Positions 27,588 through 40,402 of a stretch of DNA of 64,000 nucleotides are shown one piece after another. Every line of letters starts with the position of its first letter. Position 1 is the stretch's first letter. Below the pieces are notes generated by a model, which ran no database searches, was not told the DNA's origin, and saw only the letters and a list, made by a program, of their open reading frames with translations. Origin of the DNA: Cafeteria roenbergensis (lineage: Eukaryota > Sar > Bigyra > Bicosoecida > Cafeteriaceae); NCBI GenBank assembly GCA_008330645.1, contig VLTN01000026.1:372001-436000 (forward strand), given 5' to 3'. The position numbers were made by a program, and so were the translations under genes.

Positions 27588-28192
27588 GCCAGCTCGGCTC
27601 AAGTGATCCCCGAGCTGAGTCGCGAGTAAGCACGTCGCAAAGCAGGCATGCAGGGCCGTGGGAAGGCAACAAGGCGCTGAGCGATGCCGTGCCATGGTGG
27701 CTGAGTGGGGGCAGGGCGGCGTGGGCGCCTGGCGCTGCGTCGTGATTCGCATGCGCAAGTGGCCTTTGTGCGCTCGGCGAGAGGTGCTGGCGAAGGTCGT
27801 CCGCACGCAGGCCAGCGCAGCATTGGAGTCGTCGGCCGGAGGCGCGTTTGTGGTTGCTACGCGGCGGTTTGCGATCGAGTGTGACCTGTGTCCGAGGCCT
27901 GTGACTGCCGAACGCTCGGCGGAGGCAAGAATGTGTCAGTTTCCGCGCGGCTCTGCAAGCGCGCTCGGCAGCCATTGCTGCATTGCTCCGGCCCGCGCAC
28001 GCCCGCGACCGCAGCCGGGCCAGGCGCTGACACGGCCGCTCTTGCCGGGCACCGGCCACTCGCTTTGGGCAGCCCAGCGGAAAACAGGCGCGCCCCGGTC
28101 GCCGGGAGCTGCGTCTCTCGCTGCGTTCGCTGCCAGCAGCAGACGATTGCTCCCCGTTCCCGGTAAGGCGCGGACAGTCCCAGGAGCACGCC
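27588..28192. other. Intergenic region upstream of BTB-pentapeptide gene
   Basis: This 605 bp stretch lies between two plus-strand genes. Frames are short or Arg-rich and no exon is supported. It presumably holds the promoter of the downstream gene. Confidence 0.4.
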
Positions 28193-30856
28193 ATGGATGA
28201 GGGCGCAGGGGCCCACCGCATTGCGTTTGCGGACGCCCATGAGCGCGGGGCCGCTTCGGCGCAGCCAGCGGACCGGCTGCCCCCTCAGCAGCCAAAGATG
28301 CAACGCTCGGGAAGCCGCTCTGCGCTTCTCAGGGCTGGTGAGACGGCGATGGGCGGTCAACGCCTGGATCCCATTGGCCTGTCGTCCCCAGGCGCGGCGA
28401 GCGCACACGCCAGGCGCCCTTTGCCGTCGCTCGAGGGGCACGGTTTGGCAGCGCCCCACGGCGAGCAGCTCAGCCACCCGCGCGCGCCCGCTGTCCAGTC
28501 CCCGGCCGGGCACGCCATCACTATGTCAGCGCCGCATCGCATGGCGGCAGGGTTCGCTGCGGCCGCGTCGCGAGCTGCATCCGACGGGCCCGTGGGTGCC
28601 GCCGGCACGCGGCGCGCGAGCGTCACGCCGCCCCGGACGGCGAGCCGTGGCTCCGGCGCCGCCCCGTCCCCGCCGCCGTCAGAGGCCCACACGTCTGCGA
28701 GCGTGTCTCGCCCCAGCGGCTCCGGGCGCGGCAGCGCGGGGCGGGCCTCGCCCGCGCCCTCAGCACAGGAGAGGCCCTCTCGGCCACAGGGCGGCGGAGC
28801 GACCAGGGGTTCGGAGGCCCGTGCGGACGCGACGGCCTCACGGCACCCCGCGCCCGCCGTCGTGGCCTCCCTCTCGTCCTCGTCCTCGCCGCCTGCAGCG
28901 GCTGCGGCTGTGGAAGCAGATGCAGCGCCCCGCGGTCGGGCCGCGGCGGCGGCTGCGCCCCGCAGCGCCCAGAGCTCGCATCAGCCGCCCCGACGATCCG
29001 CAAGAGCGGGCCGCCGCGCCCCCTCGCTGGCAGCGAGCGACGGCGGCGGCGGCGGCTCTGCCGGACCAGTCGCCCCGCGCGGCCGCCGGGCCGAGGGAGG
29101 CCCTTCCACGGCTGAGGCCACGGGCGGCGGCAGGGCCGCCGCCGCGCCCTCCTCCCCCGTGCTGGCGGCGTCGGAGAGCGGGGACATGTGGAGCGGCGCC
29201 GCCTCCGCCGCGGGCACGGCCGACCCCTCGCCGGCCGGATACCCGCCAAGCACAGGTGGCGCCGGGGACGGGCCGGGGGCAGTGGGGCGCAGACGGCCCC
29301 GCGGAGGGCGGGGGGGGCCTCGCGCGGTCCCTGGGGCGGCGGCGGACGGGGGCGCGCCCGAACCGAGCGGCTTGAGCGAACGGGACGACGCGTCGCCTCC
29401 GCGGCCCGACGCCGGTGAGATCGTGACTCTCAACGTGGGCGGCACGGCCTTCACGACGACGCGGTCCACGCTCGCCGCCGTGCCCGGCTCTCTCCTGTCT
29501 CGGCTGGCCGACGGGGCGCCCGTTTTCCCGCTTCGTGACTCGCACGGCGCCTTCTTCATAGACCGCGACCCGTCGCAGTTTCACGTGGTCCTCGACTTCT
29601 TGCGGGCCGGCCGCCAGGCCTGCCTGCTGCCGGACAGCCGGCCAGCGCTGGTGCGGCTGGCGGCAGAGGCGCGATACTACGAGCTGCCTTCGCTCGCCGA
29701 CGAGGCGGACGCGGAGGTCTTGCGGCTCGCGGCCAAGCCCATCTCGCGCGGGCTGGTGCTGCAGCTGCTGCACTCGAGCAGCGACGGCAGGCTGCAGCTG
29801 CCAGCCACCAAGCTGTGCGGGCTGGTGCTGAGCTTCCTGCGGCTGGTGGACTCGACCTTCACGGGCTGCGACTTTGCCGGCGCGGACCTGAGCGGCTCGG
29901 ACCTGGGGCGCTGCCAAGCCACCTTCGCGTCCTTTGCGGGGGCGAATCTGACGTCGGCCACGCTGGCGGAGGCTCGGCTGGAGCGCAGCGTGTTCCGCTC
30001 GGCCACGATGGTGCGGGCCAACCTCGCCGGCGCGGACCTCCGATCAGCTGACTTCACGCGGTGCGACCTGCGTCGCGCGAACCTCACGGCGGCCTCGGTA
30101 AAGGGTGCGCTGTGGGGGGGGGCGACGCTGGAGAAGGCCGTCGTCATCGGCGTGGACCTTCGAGGGGCCGACATGCAGGGGCTGGTGCTTCGGGAGGCCA
30201 ACTTCGAGGGCTCGGACCTGAGCGGCGCGGTGCTGCGCGGCAGTGACCTCTCCCGGGCCAACCTGTGGGGCTGTCAGGGGCTGGAGTCGGCCGACCTGGA
30301 GGGCTGCCTGCTCGCCGGGGCGATTCTGCCCCCGGGGGTGCGCGAGGAGACGAGGCGCGGTTCCACGCTGGCCGCCGGCGCGGGACCGGGGGCCGCGGAC
30401 GCTGAGGGCGCGTCGGGGAGCTGGACGGCGCAGGTCCCGGCGCGGTCCCGAGCGACGTCGACATCGGCGTTCCGGGGCCGGGAGGACGGGCCGGCGCCGC
30501 GCCAGGGCACCGCGCCTCAGCCCAGGCAGCGGCAGCGAGTGAGCGGCGGGGCGGGCGGCGGCGGGGCGCCGGCGCGGCCTTCGCAGGGCACGGCCGGCGC
30601 GCCGGCGCAGCAGCCCCGGAGGCAGGGTCTCGCGGGCGCTGGGGCCGCGTCGCTCGCGCGCCCTGCGCCCAACACCGGACGCGACGTCACCATGGCGGGG
30701 CTCGCCTCAGCCAGCGCGGCAGGCGCGAGCTTGTGGGCCAGCGACCGCGTCTGGACCGGCTCCGGCGTGTCCGCGCAGGAGCCTGAGATGCCCTCGCCCC
30801 TGTCCGCGATGCGGGACGACCCGCCCACAAGAGCCCGCGACTTTGGGGGCAAGTAG
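28193..30856 (+). CDS. BTB/POZ (KCTD-type) and pentapeptide-repeat protein, KCTD9-like
   Basis: A single frame of 887 residues starts at ATG 28193 (MDEGAGAHRI). Residues 1-400 are Ser/Ala/Pro/Arg-rich and appear disordered. A T1/KCTD-type BTB domain spans about 408-510: IVTLNVGGTAFTTTRSTLAA, FFIDRDPSQFHVVLDFLRAG, AEARYYELPSLADEA. From about 550 to 715 come pentapeptide repeats of the A(D/N)Lxx type (CDFAGADLSGSDLGRC, ANLAGADLRSADFTRCDLRR, GSDLSRANL), predicted to form a right-handed quadrilateral beta-helix. A low-complexity tail ends the protein. BTB followed by pentapeptide repeats is the KCTD9 arrangement; KCTD9 is proposed to be a cullin-3 substrate adaptor. The long N-terminus replaces the shorter N-terminal domain of animal KCTD9. 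Confidence 0.8.
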   Translation: MDEGAGAHRIAFADAHERGAASAQPADRLPPQQPKMQRSGSRSALLRAGETAMGGQRLDPIGLSSPGAASAHARRPLPSLEGHGLAAPHGEQLSHPRAPAVQSPAGHAITMSAPHRMAAGFAAAASRAASDGPVGAAGTRRASVTPPRTASRGSGAAPSPPPSEAHTSASVSRPSGSGRGSAGRASPAPSAQERPSRPQGGGATRGSEARADATASRHPAPAVVASLSSSSSPPAAAAAVEADAAPRGRAAAAAAPRSAQSSHQPPRRSARAGRRAPSLAASDGGGGGSAGPVAPRGRRAEGGPSTAEATGGGRAAAAPSSPVLAASESGDMWSGAASAAGTADPSPAGYPPSTGGAGDGPGAVGRRRPRGGRGGPRAVPGAAADGGAPEPSGLSERDDASPPRPDAGEIVTLNVGGTAFTTTRSTLAAVPGSLLSRLADGAPVFPLRDSHGAFFIDRDPSQFHVVLDFLRAGRQACLLPDSRPALVRLAAEARYYELPSLADEADAEVLRLAAKPISRGLVLQLLHSSSDGRLQLPATKLCGLVLSFLRLVDSTFTGCDFAGADLSGSDLGRCQATFASFAGANLTSATLAEARLERSVFRSATMVRANLAGADLRSADFTRCDLRRANLTAASVKGALWGGATLEKAVVIGVDLRGADMQGLVLREANFEGSDLSGAVLRGSDLSRANLWGCQGLESADLEGCLLAGAILPPGVREETRRGSTLAAGAGPGAADAEGASGSWTAQVPARSRATSTSAFRGREDGPAPRQGTAPQPRQRQRVSGGAGGGGAPARPSQGTAGAPAQQPRRQGLAGAGAASLARPAPNTGRDVTMAGLASASAAGASLWASDRVWTGSGVSAQEPEMPSPLSAMRDDPPTRARDFGGK

Positions 30857-33633: not shown

Positions 33634-36600
33634 ATGTCGCGGCGCGTTATGTCCCAGCCTGGCGAGCTCGCGGAGGACGAACCCTGGCAGGTGCCCGCCT
33701 CCCATGTCGAGCTCGGCAAGGATCAAGCGCTTCCCGACTCGGCCCTGTGGGCGCTGCAGGACTCGTTTTACAAGGAAATGGGGGCCAAGAGCTGGAGCCA
33801 GGCCGTGGTGCCCAACTTTGTCACGTCCAATTGCCACATTGCGCGGTGCTACGCCAACATGTTCATGGCCTCGGCCACTGACTGGGCGAGGTGAGACCGA
33901 GGCCGCAGCGAGGCCGCCCCTCGCCCGACCCCCCGTCACGGAGCCCCGCCCCGCGGCCGCGACAGCGCACGGGCAGGCGGCGAGGCAGGCGGCGAGTCTG
34001 GTCGGCCCCGCTCGGGCCGTGGACCCCGAGCCCTCGGCCCGGATCAAAGGCGGGCGCTGCCGAGCGCTAGCGCGCAGACCACCGCGTTGCCGCCGAGGGC
34101 AGACCTGTGCCAAGCCTGCGACTGCACTGATGCCCGCGTGACTGTTTTGCTCTGGCTGCGGCCGGTCTCGCAGGACCAACCCCCAGGCCCCCGGGGAGCC
34201 AGGGGATGTGGCGCCCGTTGTCATCGTCGAGGTGGGGTGCGGCCACGGCCGCCTCGGCTTCATGATCGTGCGCCACCTGCTCGCGATGCGCGCGTCCTGG
34301 CCCCCCTCGTGGGACGCCTGCGCGCTCGCCGGCGGCCGTCCGTTCCTGTACGTGCTGGCGGATCTGGCGGAACGAAACGTCCGCTTCATCGAGCGCTTCG
34401 CGCCGCTGCGCGCCATGATCGACGCCGGGTGGGTGGACTCCGCAGTCTTTGGTGAGAGGCTGCGCCCGCTCGCGGGCCCGCCCCCCACGGCCGCGTCGCC
34501 GCCTCTTGCTCGCCCGGTACCCGCAGATGCCGTCGCCTCGCCAGCGGCAAGCCAGCAGCGCCCCCCCCCCCCGCCCCCTTCACCATCACCCCCCCGCCGA
34601 CTCGGCCGCCGTTGCGCACGCCGCTTGCCGTCTGCTGCCCACCCCTCCCCCTTCCGTGGCCGCGTCGCGCCGCTTTCCACGCCACGCGCAGACGCCGAGA
34701 ACGACCGAACCCTCCGCCTGCGCGCCTCAGGCCGCACGCTCTCCGCCCGAGACTTCTCCGGGGGCTCCGGCCGCGGCCGCCTCCTCGTCGCGGTGGCGAA
34801 CTACGTGGTCGACACGCTGGCCCAGGACGCGTACCGCGTGCGGGACGGGGCCCTCGAGCGAGCCCACCTCAGCATCGCCGCGCCTCTGGACGCCGACGGC
34901 TCCGACCCCCTCTTGCGCGCCTCTGAGAAGCCCGGCAGAGCCGCCGCGCGCCTCCTCGCCTCCTCGCGGACCGTGTCGCGCCTCTCGTGGCAGTGGCGCT
35001 GGACCCCCACCAGCCCCGCCGCCGCCGCCGCCGCGCTCGCCGCCGACGGCCACCCCCTCTCCGCCGACGTCCTCCTCGCCTACGCGGCCCTCTTCGGCGG
35101 CCGCGCGCTGGGGGGCACCGGGTCTCCGCGCGACGCCTCCTTCCTCGTGCCGCTGGGCGGCCTGCGGCTGCTCGACAGCCTGCGCACGCTCGGCAGCGGG
35201 CGCTGCGTGTTCTTGCTCGGGGACAAGGCCTACTCCGAGGAGGCGGAGCTGGTGGGGCTGCGCACGCCGCACATCGCGCTGCATGGCTCCTTCAGCTTCA
35301 TGGCAAACCTTCACGGCATGATGCTCGGCGCCCGGGCGCTGGGCGGCGAGGCCCTCGCAACCCCGCTCCGCGACGGCTTCAAGTGCGCGTGCCTGCTCGT
35401 CGGAACGGCAGAGCCAGTGGCAGCGGCCGCCGGCCCCGCCGCGGACCCGGCCGGCGCCGGGGCAGCCAGCGGCGCGGGTGACGCCGGCGGCGCCTCCGGG
35501 GCGGAGGACGCTGCAGTGGCCGCCTCCGCACCCGTGGGTGACGCCGCCTCCGCCTCGTCCGACGCCCGCCAGGCGTGGCGTTGCTGGTTCGGGTCCTACT
35601 GCCCCGAGGCCTTCTCCACCCTCCAGCGGGCCGTGTACGAGTGCGACACCACCGACACGTGCAGCCTGCGCACGGCCGTGGCCGTTCTCCGCCTCAGCGG
35701 CTGGGAGCCCGACGTGGCCCACAAGTTCCGCATCACCCTCGTGACCAGGGCCGAGACAGCCTCCCCGCGCATGCGCCGGGACCTGGCCGCGGACATCGTG
35801 CGCTGCGGCGGCGCCATCTTCCCCCTGCAGCCGGCCAAGGACATCCTCTTCGAGCTTGGCAGGGCCCTCGTGAACATCGGCCGCTACGGCGCGGCCACCG
35901 TGTTCTTCGAGGAGTCCCGCTGGTGGTGCGGCGAACACCACGTCGCCTGGTACAACATGGGCCTCTGCCACCACCGCTCGGGCCGCTTCCGTCAGGCGGC
36001 CGCGTGCCACCGCCGCTCGCTCGAGCTCGACCCCACCTACGGCCTCGCCAGGGAGTGGCTGCGCCACGCCACGGCGCGCATCCGCGACAGGCGCGCTGTA
36101 GAGCAGCGCCTCGCCTCCGCCCCCGACGACGACGCCGCGCCGCTCGCGGCCTCAGGGGGCGCGTCGCTCGCCGAGCGGGCCGCTGCGGCCGTGCGTCGAT
36201 CGGCAGAGCTCGCCAGGTCCAAGGGAGTGCTGCCCGGCGAAGCCGCCCTGCCGGACGTCGACGCGGACGGAACAGTCGCGGCGCTGCCAGGCACGTCCGC
36301 CCAGCAGGCGGCGGAGGGGGGCGCGGCCGGTGCCGGTGCCGGTGCCGGTGCCGGTGACGAGGACGACGAAGACGATGAGGACGAGGCCGCGACCGGCGCT
36401 GCATCCGGGGTTGGCGACGCCGCTGCCGCTGCCGCCGGCGTGGGGGGGAGCGAGCCGGTGCCCGGAGCGGCGGACGCCGGCGCGTTGACGTCCTCTGCGG
36501 CCGCAATGCACACCACCGTCACGGTCGCGTGCGTGGGCGCCTTTGGCGCAGGGGACGTGCCTGCGGCCGGCGTGGCGGCCGACCCGTTCTCGTCCGGCCT

Positions 36601-37513
36601 GGTGGACAGCGACGATGAGGACGAGGCCGCCGTGGCGCGGGCTGCGGCGGCAGGCCCCAGCGGCGAAGGCGCCGCTGGGCCCGCCGCCGCCGAGGCCGCC
36701 GCCCTGGCCGCCGCCCGCCGCGGCGCCACGTCCAACGGGGAGGCGCTGGCTGCGTGGGGCGCGGGCGTGCGGCACCCCTCTGGCATTGGCGCGGCGTGGG
36801 CCGCCGGGCGGGAGGTGGCGGTGTGCCACGTGCGGGTTCGGCGCGGGGCGTCACTCCGGCAGGTTTTGGGCAAGGCGCGGGAGGCTGCCGTTGAAGCCCG
36901 CCTGGCGGTGGTGCGGGCGGCCCGCGACGCCGCTGTGGCTGCGCTGGAGCAGGCGGACGCGACCCTTTCCGCGCCCTCGGGCAGGATGGCCATCGCAGAG
37001 GCGCAGCAGGACGCTGTGGTGCGCGCGGTCGAGGCGGCGGAGCAGGCTGGCGCCGATACTGCCGCCGCCGCGGACGAGGCGAAGCAGCGCGTTCTGGACA
37101 TGGCGCGCGATGAGGCGGACGCCGCCGCCGCAGACAAGGCCATGGCAGCGCGGTTCGAGACTGCCGACGCCACGGCGCCCCGCGGGGAGGGGCCCGATCA
37201 GAGCGGGCTCCTGCTGCGGGCGGCGGACGCGGCGCTGTCCGGGGCGGCCGGCTGCCGCGTCATTCTGGCTTACGCCGAGGCGGTGCCGTACGTGTCGGCG
37301 GTGCTCGCCGCCGCGGACGGGGAGGGGCCGGGCCGCGCAACTGTGATCCGGCCCGGCGTGGAGGAGGACGCCATGGACGCGAGCGGACGAGTGCTGCGCG
37401 TGGACCCGGCGGTGCCGGGGGCGATGGACCAGCCTGCTCCGATGGCCGGTGCTTCCGGCGACCTGCGCGAGAGGCTGGCGCGCGGCTGCGTGGTGACTGT
37501 GGTGCTGGACTGA
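33634..37513 (+). CDS. Putative SAM-dependent methyltransferase with TPR region (3 exons)
   Basis: Exons 33634-33890, 34174-34451 and 34692-37513 join to 1118 residues, with ATG 33634 or, five codons later, 33649 as start. Near residue 100 is a class I methyltransferase motif I (VVIVEVGCGHGRLGFMIV) followed by FLYVLADLAERNVRFIERFA. The preceding segment (LQDSFYKEMGAKSWSQAVVP, NFVTSNCHIARCYANMF) and the following GRGRLLVAVANYVVDTLAQD resemble bacterial methyltransferase-like proteins with TPRs. A TPR pair lies near residues 560-640 (ALVNIGRYGAATVFFEESRW, YNMGLCHHRSGRFRQAAACH). The C-terminal part is Ala-rich with an acidic run (GDEDDEDDEDEA) and a probable coiled coil near 880-1000. Methyl transfer is inferred from motif I; the substrate is unknown. 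An alternative acceptor near 34525 would also keep the frame open. Confidence 0.7.
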
Positions 37514-37790
37514 GCAGGTGCCTCGCCGCGCCCTGTGTCGAAGCTAGCTGCATAGCGAAGCGTGCGCGGTGCGACCCTCAGTCTCGGCGGCAAGCGCGAA
37601 CCCGTGAAGCAACAAGGACAAACATACACACGCGCGAGCGCGCAGTCTCAAGCGCAGGCCGGCCTGGGCAGCGCGCGCCCGCAAAGGCAGCTGCCGCCCC
37701 CCCGCGCCGCCGAAGCGACCCAGCCCGCCGCCACACTGCGGCCCAGCCTTCCGAGCAGCGGCACCGCCGCCCGACCCCGCAGCCTGCCCG
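37514..37790. other. Convergent 3' spacer between methyltransferase-TPR gene and kinesin
   Basis: This 277 bp stretch lies between two stop codons and includes the A-rich words AAGCAACAAGGACAAACATA. No gene is seen. Confidence 0.45.
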
Positions 37791-40402
37791 TCAGGAGGTC
37801 CGGCCGCGCTGATACGCCCGCACAATGTCTGGGAACTCCTCCGCCAGCGCCGCGGCGTCGAACCACTCGTCCGACTCTGGCGCGTCGCCCTCCCAGCGGA
37901 GGCGGTACTGCAGCCGGCCCTGCTCGTCCACCCTGTGCGCCACGATGCGGTCCGGCTGCGGCGAGCCGTCCGACAGCTCGGAGCCGTCCGAGGACGCCTC
38001 CCAGGCGGTGCTGCCGTCCTGCGCGCCCCCGCCCCCCATGAGCTTGGCGTTGGTCTCCAGCAGGTAGCGCAGGAGGAGCGTCTGGTGGATGCCCTCCTCG
38101 CTCTCTGCGGCGCCGTCGGCGGCTCTCACCAGCTGCTGCTGCCCGCCTCCGCTGCCGGCCATCGAGTCGGCGCTCCACTCCTCCCCGGCGGGGCCCGAGG
38201 AGGCGCCCGTCCCCGCCCCGGCTCCTCTTCGGAGCAGCGGCTCGATTGCCCTGGCTGCCGTGTCCAGCATGCTCGAGACGCCGTCGAAGTCGACCGCCCC
38301 GCCCTTTTGCTTGCCCAGCGGCCGCTCCACCTGCAGCGCGGAGATGATCCGCTCGGCGAGCCCGGAGGCCTTGCGGGCCAGCTCCATGTTGTGGCCCACC
38401 GCCGAGGCGGACATGACGGCGGCCAGGCGCGCCTCGTACTCCTGCCGCAGCCGCTCGGCCTGCTGCCGCCACCGAGACTCCGCCTCCGCCACCGCCCGCC
38501 TCGCGGCTTCCTCGGCCATTCCCTGCGCCTGTGCCGACCCGGCCGCCAGGGCGGTGACGGTTCGCACGGGCGCCGCCGCCACGCGCATGCAGCGCTCGGC
38601 GAACTTGAGCGTTGACACCGTCTCGCTCGCGTCAACGGCCATGGGGCCGATGGTAGCCACAACGCAGGTCTCGGCGTTGCCGCCCAGGCTCCGGGAGAGC
38701 AGCTTGGTCAGCTTCGAGTCGCGGAACGGCACGTGCCGCTCCGAAGCCTTGCCGCGAAACCGCGCCACGTCGGAGAGCTTCGCGATGACGTTGCCGAGAG
38801 CGGCGAGCGAGGAGTTGATGGCCCGGGCCTCGTCCAGACGGGCGCCGCTGCGGGGGCGGCGATCCAGCGAGTGCAGGGAGAGGCAGAGCAGGGCGGGGGG
38901 GAGCGCGAGATTGGGTTGCCAGGGCGGGGGGGTGCCGGGCGCGCGCGGGTTGCGGAGGCAATTTGGGCGGTGGCAGACGCAGCCTGGCAGCAGGAGGGCT
39001 AGCACGTTGCAGCAAGGCCAGCGCGGCTCGCAGTGGCCTCGCGGAGCGGAGAGGGGGCGGCGCAGTGTCGGGGGCGGCGCAGTGTCGGGGGCGGCGCAGT
39101 GTCGGGGGCGGCGCAGCGTCGGGGGCGGCGCTGTGTCGGGGGCGGCGCAGTGGAGAGGGGAGCTCACGTGCTGGATGTGCGCGCTACGCGCTCGCTGCCC
39201 GCGAGGTCGACCAGGGTGAGGCGGCCCATGGTGGCGGGGCCGCCGGCCGCCCTGGCCTGCCTGACGGTCACCATGAGGAGGGTGTGACTCCTGGATGACG
39301 TGGCGTTCATGCGGGTGGCGCCGAGCACGCGACGCTCGAGGCCGTCGTTGATGGCGGCCACAGCCTCCGCGTAGCCGTTCACGGTCCATTCCCCCGCGTC
39401 GGGCGCGTAGAACCCGCGCCCGGGAGACTCTCTGACGGCCAGCGGACGCAGGCTGTCGTCTCCGGCGGGCGGCAGCAGGTCGTACACGGCTTCGAGATAT
39501 ACCTGCAAAAACTGCACGCTGACGCTGAAGGCGCTGTCCGGGTGCCGCGCAGCGTGGCCGAAGCAGTGCGATAGCGCCCGCGGGATGAGCCCCGCGCTCT
39601 CGGACTCCACCCGTGAGAGAATGCCCATCGTGTGACTCTTGCCGGTCCCCGTCTGCCCGTACGCCAGCACGGCGCCGTTGAACCCGTCCAGCACCCGGTC
39701 CACCACCGGCCCGGCCACCACGTCGTACACGTCGTCCTGCGTCGCCTGCGGGCCGAAAGCCGCGTCAAAGAGCCAGCGGTTGCCGGCGCCGCCGGCGCTC
39801 GGGTCCGCCACCACGACGGACTGCAGCGCCCCCCCGCCACGGACACCGGCGTCCGCGGGCTGCTCCGCCGGAACGCGCACCGCAATGCCCACCGGCCGCG
39901 GCTTCCAGCCCCGCGGAGGGCGCGCGGGCAGCGCCCCGGACGAGTCACCCTCGCGCGCGTGGGAGACGGAGGACCACGGAGAGTCGGCGGTCGCGGCGCC
40001 GGCGCGGGCCGCGCTGGGCGGCTCCAAGGGCCTCGGCGTTCGCAGGGGGCCCACGGACTCGCGCAGGCCCGAGTCTGCGACAGACCTGCCCAGCCATTTC
40101 CGCTGCATTTCCGCCTCGCGCGCGTCCCGGCGCAGCTCGTCCGCCAAGGGCGGCCGGCAGCGCACTGCCACGCGCACACGGCGCGTGGACGACGGGGCAA
40201 GCCGCGCGGGCTCCGACGCCGCCGGCCGGGGACCTGGCGAGACTGCGGCAACGGCCGGGGCCGGCGGCGCGTCAGCGGCGCGCCGGCGCACCAGCGAGGC
40301 TCGGTACACCGCCGTGCCGCCGGACCGGCTCGGCGCCACCTCACCGCTTCCCAGCCGTGCCGCGCTCGGCGGCCCGCCCGGGCCTGGTCCCGCGGCGGCC
40401 AT
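37791..40402 (-). CDS. Kinesin motor protein with C-terminal chromodomain-like module (2 exons)
   Basis: Minus-strand exons 40402-39168 and 38847-37791 join in phase 2 to 763 residues. The motor starts with VRVAVRCRPPLADEL near residue 75, has an unusually long insert before the P-loop (AYGQTGTGKSHTMG near 247), then switch I NATSSRSH and switch II LVDLAGSERVARTSSTGARL; the exon junction restores SST-GARLDEARAINSSLAALG. KFAERCMRVAAAPVR ends the motor core. A short coiled coil follows (AVAEAESRWRQQAERLRQEY). The last 53 residues read DRIVAHRVDEQGRLQYRLRW, EGDAPESDEWFDAAALAEEF and PDIVRAY, matching a chromodomain: I-V-x-x-R near the start, G-x-x-x-Y-x-L-x-W-x-G, then E-W and a C-terminal helix. 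The intron (38848-39167) holds a 17-bp tandem repeat. Motor identity is certain; the chromo call is by pattern. Confidence 0.9.
39053..39150. repeat. 17-bp tandem repeat in the kinesin intron, about 5.8 copies
   Basis: The unit GGGGGCGGCGCAGTGTC repeats from 39053, the fourth copy with GCGTC and the fifth with CTGTGTC, ending in a partial copy. It lies within the single kinesin intron. Confidence 0.93.

Follow-up and report, generated by a model that had tools for sequence, protein, structure and literature searches.

A predicted kinesin of Cafeteria roenbergensis that ends in an acidic chromodomain with an incomplete methyl-lysine cage

The gene and its coding frame

The window analyzed here is a 64,000-nucleotide stretch of the genome of Cafeteria roenbergensis, a unicellular marine flagellate of the bicosoecids (contig VLTN01000026.1, positions 372,001 to 436,000). 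Its minus strand carries a 763-residue gene that, judged by its sequence, is a genuine kinesin-chromodomain fusion, in which an intact motor sequence and a chromodomain lie in one coding frame. Translation yields two exons, 40402-39168 and 38847-37791, with an intron of 320 bases spliced out. Exon 1 (39168..40402, minus strand) encodes an N-terminal extension, motor strand beta-1 (residues 75-85), a long insert and the motor as far as LVDLAGSERVARTSS; splicing, translation, Pfam and motif positions assign it residues 1-411 and two bases of codon 412. The predicted intron (38848..39167, minus strand) has the borders GTGAGC..CCGCAG and is placed on the basis that its removal restores the motor reading, joining RTSST to GARLDEARAIN across 39167-38848. 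A 17-bp GC-rich tandem repeat of 5.9 copies lies inside this intron at 39053-39152. Exon 2 (37791..38847, minus strand) encodes the end of the motor, a helical neck, an acidic linker and the chromodomain, and closes with the stop codon at 37791-37793.

The guanine-plus-cytosine (GC) content is 74-77% over window positions 36001-40000. Long open frames are common at such values and frame continuity alone is weak evidence, so coding bias was tested, using a training set of 680 codons from one neighboring gene and one kinesin. Between 38846 and 37827, the kinesin frame ranks first of six in all eight 60-codon segments; it loses its lead in two further segments, one crossing the stop codon and the other beyond it. 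GC at the third codon position holds at 0.82-1.00 throughout exon 2. These measurements bear on a possible error in the gene model, whereby the chromodomain would be part of a small gene of its own or the transcript would stop short. Open frames come cheap at the local GC, and methionines in the linker (e.g., residue 682) make a short downstream gene conceivable, but the same-frame bias and the third-position GC continue unbroken through the linker, and no stop codon separates motor from chromodomain in the spliced translation. We regard such an error as very unlikely indeed. An earlier note on this DNA had placed the C-terminal module in the same exon and frame as the motor end, and splicing, translation and the codon bias of exon 2 bear this out.

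The motor domain

Pfam identifies a Kinesin domain (PF00225) at residues 208-500 with E = 1e-88 and 297.9 bits against a cut-off of 29.3. The sequences GQTGTGKS (249-256), NATSSRSH (366-373) and LVDLAGSE (397-404) occupy kinesin motif positions; we take them to be the P-loop, switch I and switch II, respectively. Between beta-1 and the start of the Pfam motor match lie approximately 120 residues (86-207, exon 1) with a high content of proline, alanine and arginine.

The family of the motor is not clear from its sequence. Its best matches in the PDB are KIF3B (226 bits) and OSM-3, with KIF4 at 190.6 bits. For a motor tree, 30 paralogous loci were fetched from the same genome, of which seven were excluded for the shortness of their motor pieces. 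The tree contains the remaining 23 own-genome motors and the window protein; reference motors of named families and further kinesin pieces of the genome lie outside this tree, and one member (L025) has two in-frame stops that were set to X. The window motor groups with L021 and L027 at 61% support, and it has no firm sister among these motors. L021, the weak neighbor, itself matches many kinesin families in the PDB about equally. Membership in kinesin-2 was considered and rejected: KIF3B and OSM-3 are the top PDB matches, yet L009 and L010, which by their look we take to be kinesin-2-like, are not its sisters in the tree.

Behind the motor, a single-sequence AlphaFold2 model places a long helix at residues 504-559 (38406..38573, minus strand; block predicted local distance difference test scores of 47-74), a likely coiled coil. 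A long helix in this position suggests a dimer, and the modeled kinesin is probably dimeric through it. Residues 556-704 form a low-confidence stretch in the same model, and the second half of this linker (residues 621-703) is acidic, with an isoelectric point (pI) of 4.1.

The C-terminal chromodomain

Residues 709-758 (37809..37958, minus strand) match the Pfam Chromo profile (PF00385) over profile positions 2-51 of 53, with E = 1.4e-7 and 31.7 bits against a cut-off of 25.1. The last 60 residues alone score better (1.5e-9, 38.0 bits), and a six-frame search of the genome recovers the same site at 36.9 bits. None of nine controls, comprising eight shuffles and one reversal of these 60 residues, matches any Pfam family at E ≤ 10. 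Chromo_shadow (PF01393) gives no match at E ≤ 1 in an hmmscan of either the whole protein or the fragment. The genome as a whole likewise yields no Chromo_shadow match, but since the controls of that search were silent too, this second negative carries no weight. Two single-sequence AlphaFold2 runs agree on a chromodomain fold, and the structures closest to the modeled domain are HP1 chromo shadow domains and Chd1. The profile match and the models thus uphold the earlier description of the C-terminal residues as chromodomain-like. A three-stranded sheet with one helix had been anticipated; the fold is predicted, but both models contain two long strands, a third strand of only two residues, and two short helices. 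The domain is acidic (pI 4.6), and DNA binding therefore also looks unlikely.

The methyl-lysine cage

Alignment to HP1 places P708, W730 and D733 at the positions of the cage residues Y24, W45 and Y48, such that W730 is the only one of the three aromatics kept. The alignment sets the window domain beside 13 further chromodomains from this genome, which remain of 19 translated matches once six close copies are removed; eight others of the 28 chromodomain matches in the genome are untranslated. Seven of the 13 have aromatics in all three columns. The third aromatic is missing from the remaining six, four of which are gapped at the first column and cannot be judged there. In a Pfam scan of ten of the aligned open reading frames (ORFs), four (C28, C50, C19 and C18b) combine the chromodomain with an SNF2 remodeler domain, and all of these lack the third aromatic. 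Four more (C55, C115, C2 and C56) pair it with an rve integrase domain and have three aromatics, though the rve match of C55 and the Chromo matches of C2 and C56 fall below the cut-off. The other two ORFs, C70 and C18, have no clear partner domain, and all three aromatics are present in C18 but not in C70. By sequence, then, the kinesin chromodomain shares its third-column loss with the remodeler kind. One of these remodeler-like ORFs (L041, C50:46658-46774) contains bromodomain, chromodomain, SNF2 and helicase C domains in a single frame.

The earlier note proposed a motor that reads histone methylation or a methyl-like mark on another protein. Such a chromodomain would sit on methylated H3 or another methylated protein and tie chromosomes to microtubules. 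The Pfam assignment and the retained W730 are consistent with this proposal. In addition, 13 SET-domain matches in the genome score above the cut-off, and these, with the seven fully aromatic chromodomains, indicate that methyl marks and their readers may exist. Two of the three cage positions, however, are proline and aspartate, and in SUV39H1 the loss of the first cage aromatic alone is reported to leave no detectable H3K9me binding (PMC3532415). Methyl reading by the kinesin chromodomain is possible but disfavored on this sequence evidence, and we consider a methyl-reading motor very unlikely. Overall, the earlier interpretation holds for the fusion of a chromodomain to a kinesin and falters on methyl reading.

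Comparison with known chromodomains and chromokinesins

The chromodomain of CDYL/CDY1 is the top PDB sequence match (E 0.0035) and also heads the Foldseek list (E 0.013). With CDYL, the alignment extends mainly over the strands (query 7-41), and the tyrosine that follows WKG is an aspartate in the kinesin domain. Chd1 residues 286-344, which we take to be the second chromodomain, match structurally over 54 residues at 1.7-1.9 Å with 24-26% identity. RI(I/V)AH and later similarity are common to the window domain and the C-terminal chromodomain of CHD1 chains; here, in contrast, the domain stands alone at a motor tail, with neither a partner chromodomain nor a helicase.

The window domain differs from the HP1 chromo shadow domain in being called Chromo by Pfam. 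The HP1-beta shadow domain uses I161 for dimerization and W170 for peptide binding (PMC7465937), and by-eye alignment puts an arginine and the chain end at these positions, so that neither appears to be kept. Most chromo shadow domains retain only W45 of the cage, and the group II chromodomains of plant retrotransposons lack Y24 and usually Y48 (PMC3350952), as does the kinesin domain. The plant domains end integrases, whereas this one is the tail of a host kinesin and has no close genomic copy among those compared.

These relatives bear on a second proposal, in which the domain would tether the motor to chromatin without a cage, contacting a nucleosome, an unmodified histone tail or a chromatin protein in the manner of Chd1 or a shadow domain. 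The nearest folds are of these types, and the non-aromatic third cage column is shared with the SNF2-type remodelers of the genome. phmmer also aligns the later CHD1 tandem chromodomain, weakly (E 0.0039 for the whole chain and 7.5 for that stretch). The acidity of both the domain and its linker argues against such a contact, which we judge unlikely.

The chromokinesins (kinesin-4 KIF4 and kinesin-10 Kid) resemble the window protein in joining a possibly chromosome-binding tail to a kinesin motor. Their tails bind DNA through other regions and are not known to have a chromodomain. With respect to KIF4, the window motor scores 190.6 bits, under the 226 of KIF3B.

Rarity and origin of the fusion

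Own-genome searches used the 36,303,456-base, 167-contig assembly, with the window on contig C26. Only one of at least 28 chromodomain matches sits in a kinesin gene, as judged by eye and position against at least 88 kinesin matches. The kinesin tail is single copy in this genome. When residues 701-763 are compared by tblastn with 26 locus records covering 20 of the 28 chromodomain matches, the sole match under E 0.1 is the C18 chromodomain (34% over 50 residues, E 8e-4), and six further rows range from E 0.68 to 8.9. The remaining eight of the 28 are the kinesin itself and seven outside the tblastn set, several of which are by score copies of compared ones. The possibility that a mobile element recently supplied the domain was considered and is not supported, given the single-copy tail and the one tblastn match. 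Relatives of the fusion are absent from viral contigs and prokaryotic genome contigs, neither of which is a eukaryote collection.

Among the matches listed in the open-access literature (titles and abstract openings), none describes a kinesin-chromodomain fusion, and within that scope the statement that no such architecture has been described stands. The word chromo is also absent from the main text of a 2010 survey (PMC2867816), which reports 1624 kinesins from 45 eukaryotes with 105 architectures, most confined to one organism. Since one-species architectures are common, surprise at the fusion is tempered. The assembly is public, and the fusion may already appear in automatically generated domain tables.

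Other loci

Seven chromodomain matches in the genome have equal scores (C115, C130, C4, C8, C69, C94 and C114). The three that were translated (C115, C130 and C4) have identical domain letters, and one of them, C115, also encodes an rve integrase domain. A second group of copies comprises C58, C29 and C149. Both groups resemble the integrases found in virophage- or transposon-type elements.

Within the window, the convergent neighbor of the kinesin (34142-37513, plus strand) encodes a TPR repeat with long acidic and alanine-rich stretches, and 277 bases separate its end from the stop of the kinesin gene. Farther away, 28034-30853 (plus strand) encodes a BTB/POZ domain followed by pentapeptide repeats.

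Proposed function

We consider it reasonably probable that the cage-poor, acidic chromodomain of this kinesin serves as a cargo tether that binds a peptide or protein. The motor would dimerize by way of the helix behind it and walk on microtubules, while the chromodomain would engage a peptide or protein partner through a face of its sheet or helix. Partner binding is modeled here on cage-less chromodomain relatives, the domain being acidic and without two of the three cage residues. The bound partner would be a cargo or an anchor, and both chromosomal and cytoplasmic locations are possible. That the chromodomain instead brings the kinesin to chromatin, through an unusual methyl mark or a cage-independent contact, with the state of the chromatin directing the motor, is doubtful but deserves to be kept in mind.

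The 2010 survey finds no identifiable domain beyond the motor in 1300 of its 1624 kinesins (PMC2867816), so the way in which tails select their cargo is largely unexplained. A kinesin tail that is a small, foldable and assayable interaction domain would make cargo choice directly testable. If the partner is chromatin, the protein would represent a new kind of chromokinesin.
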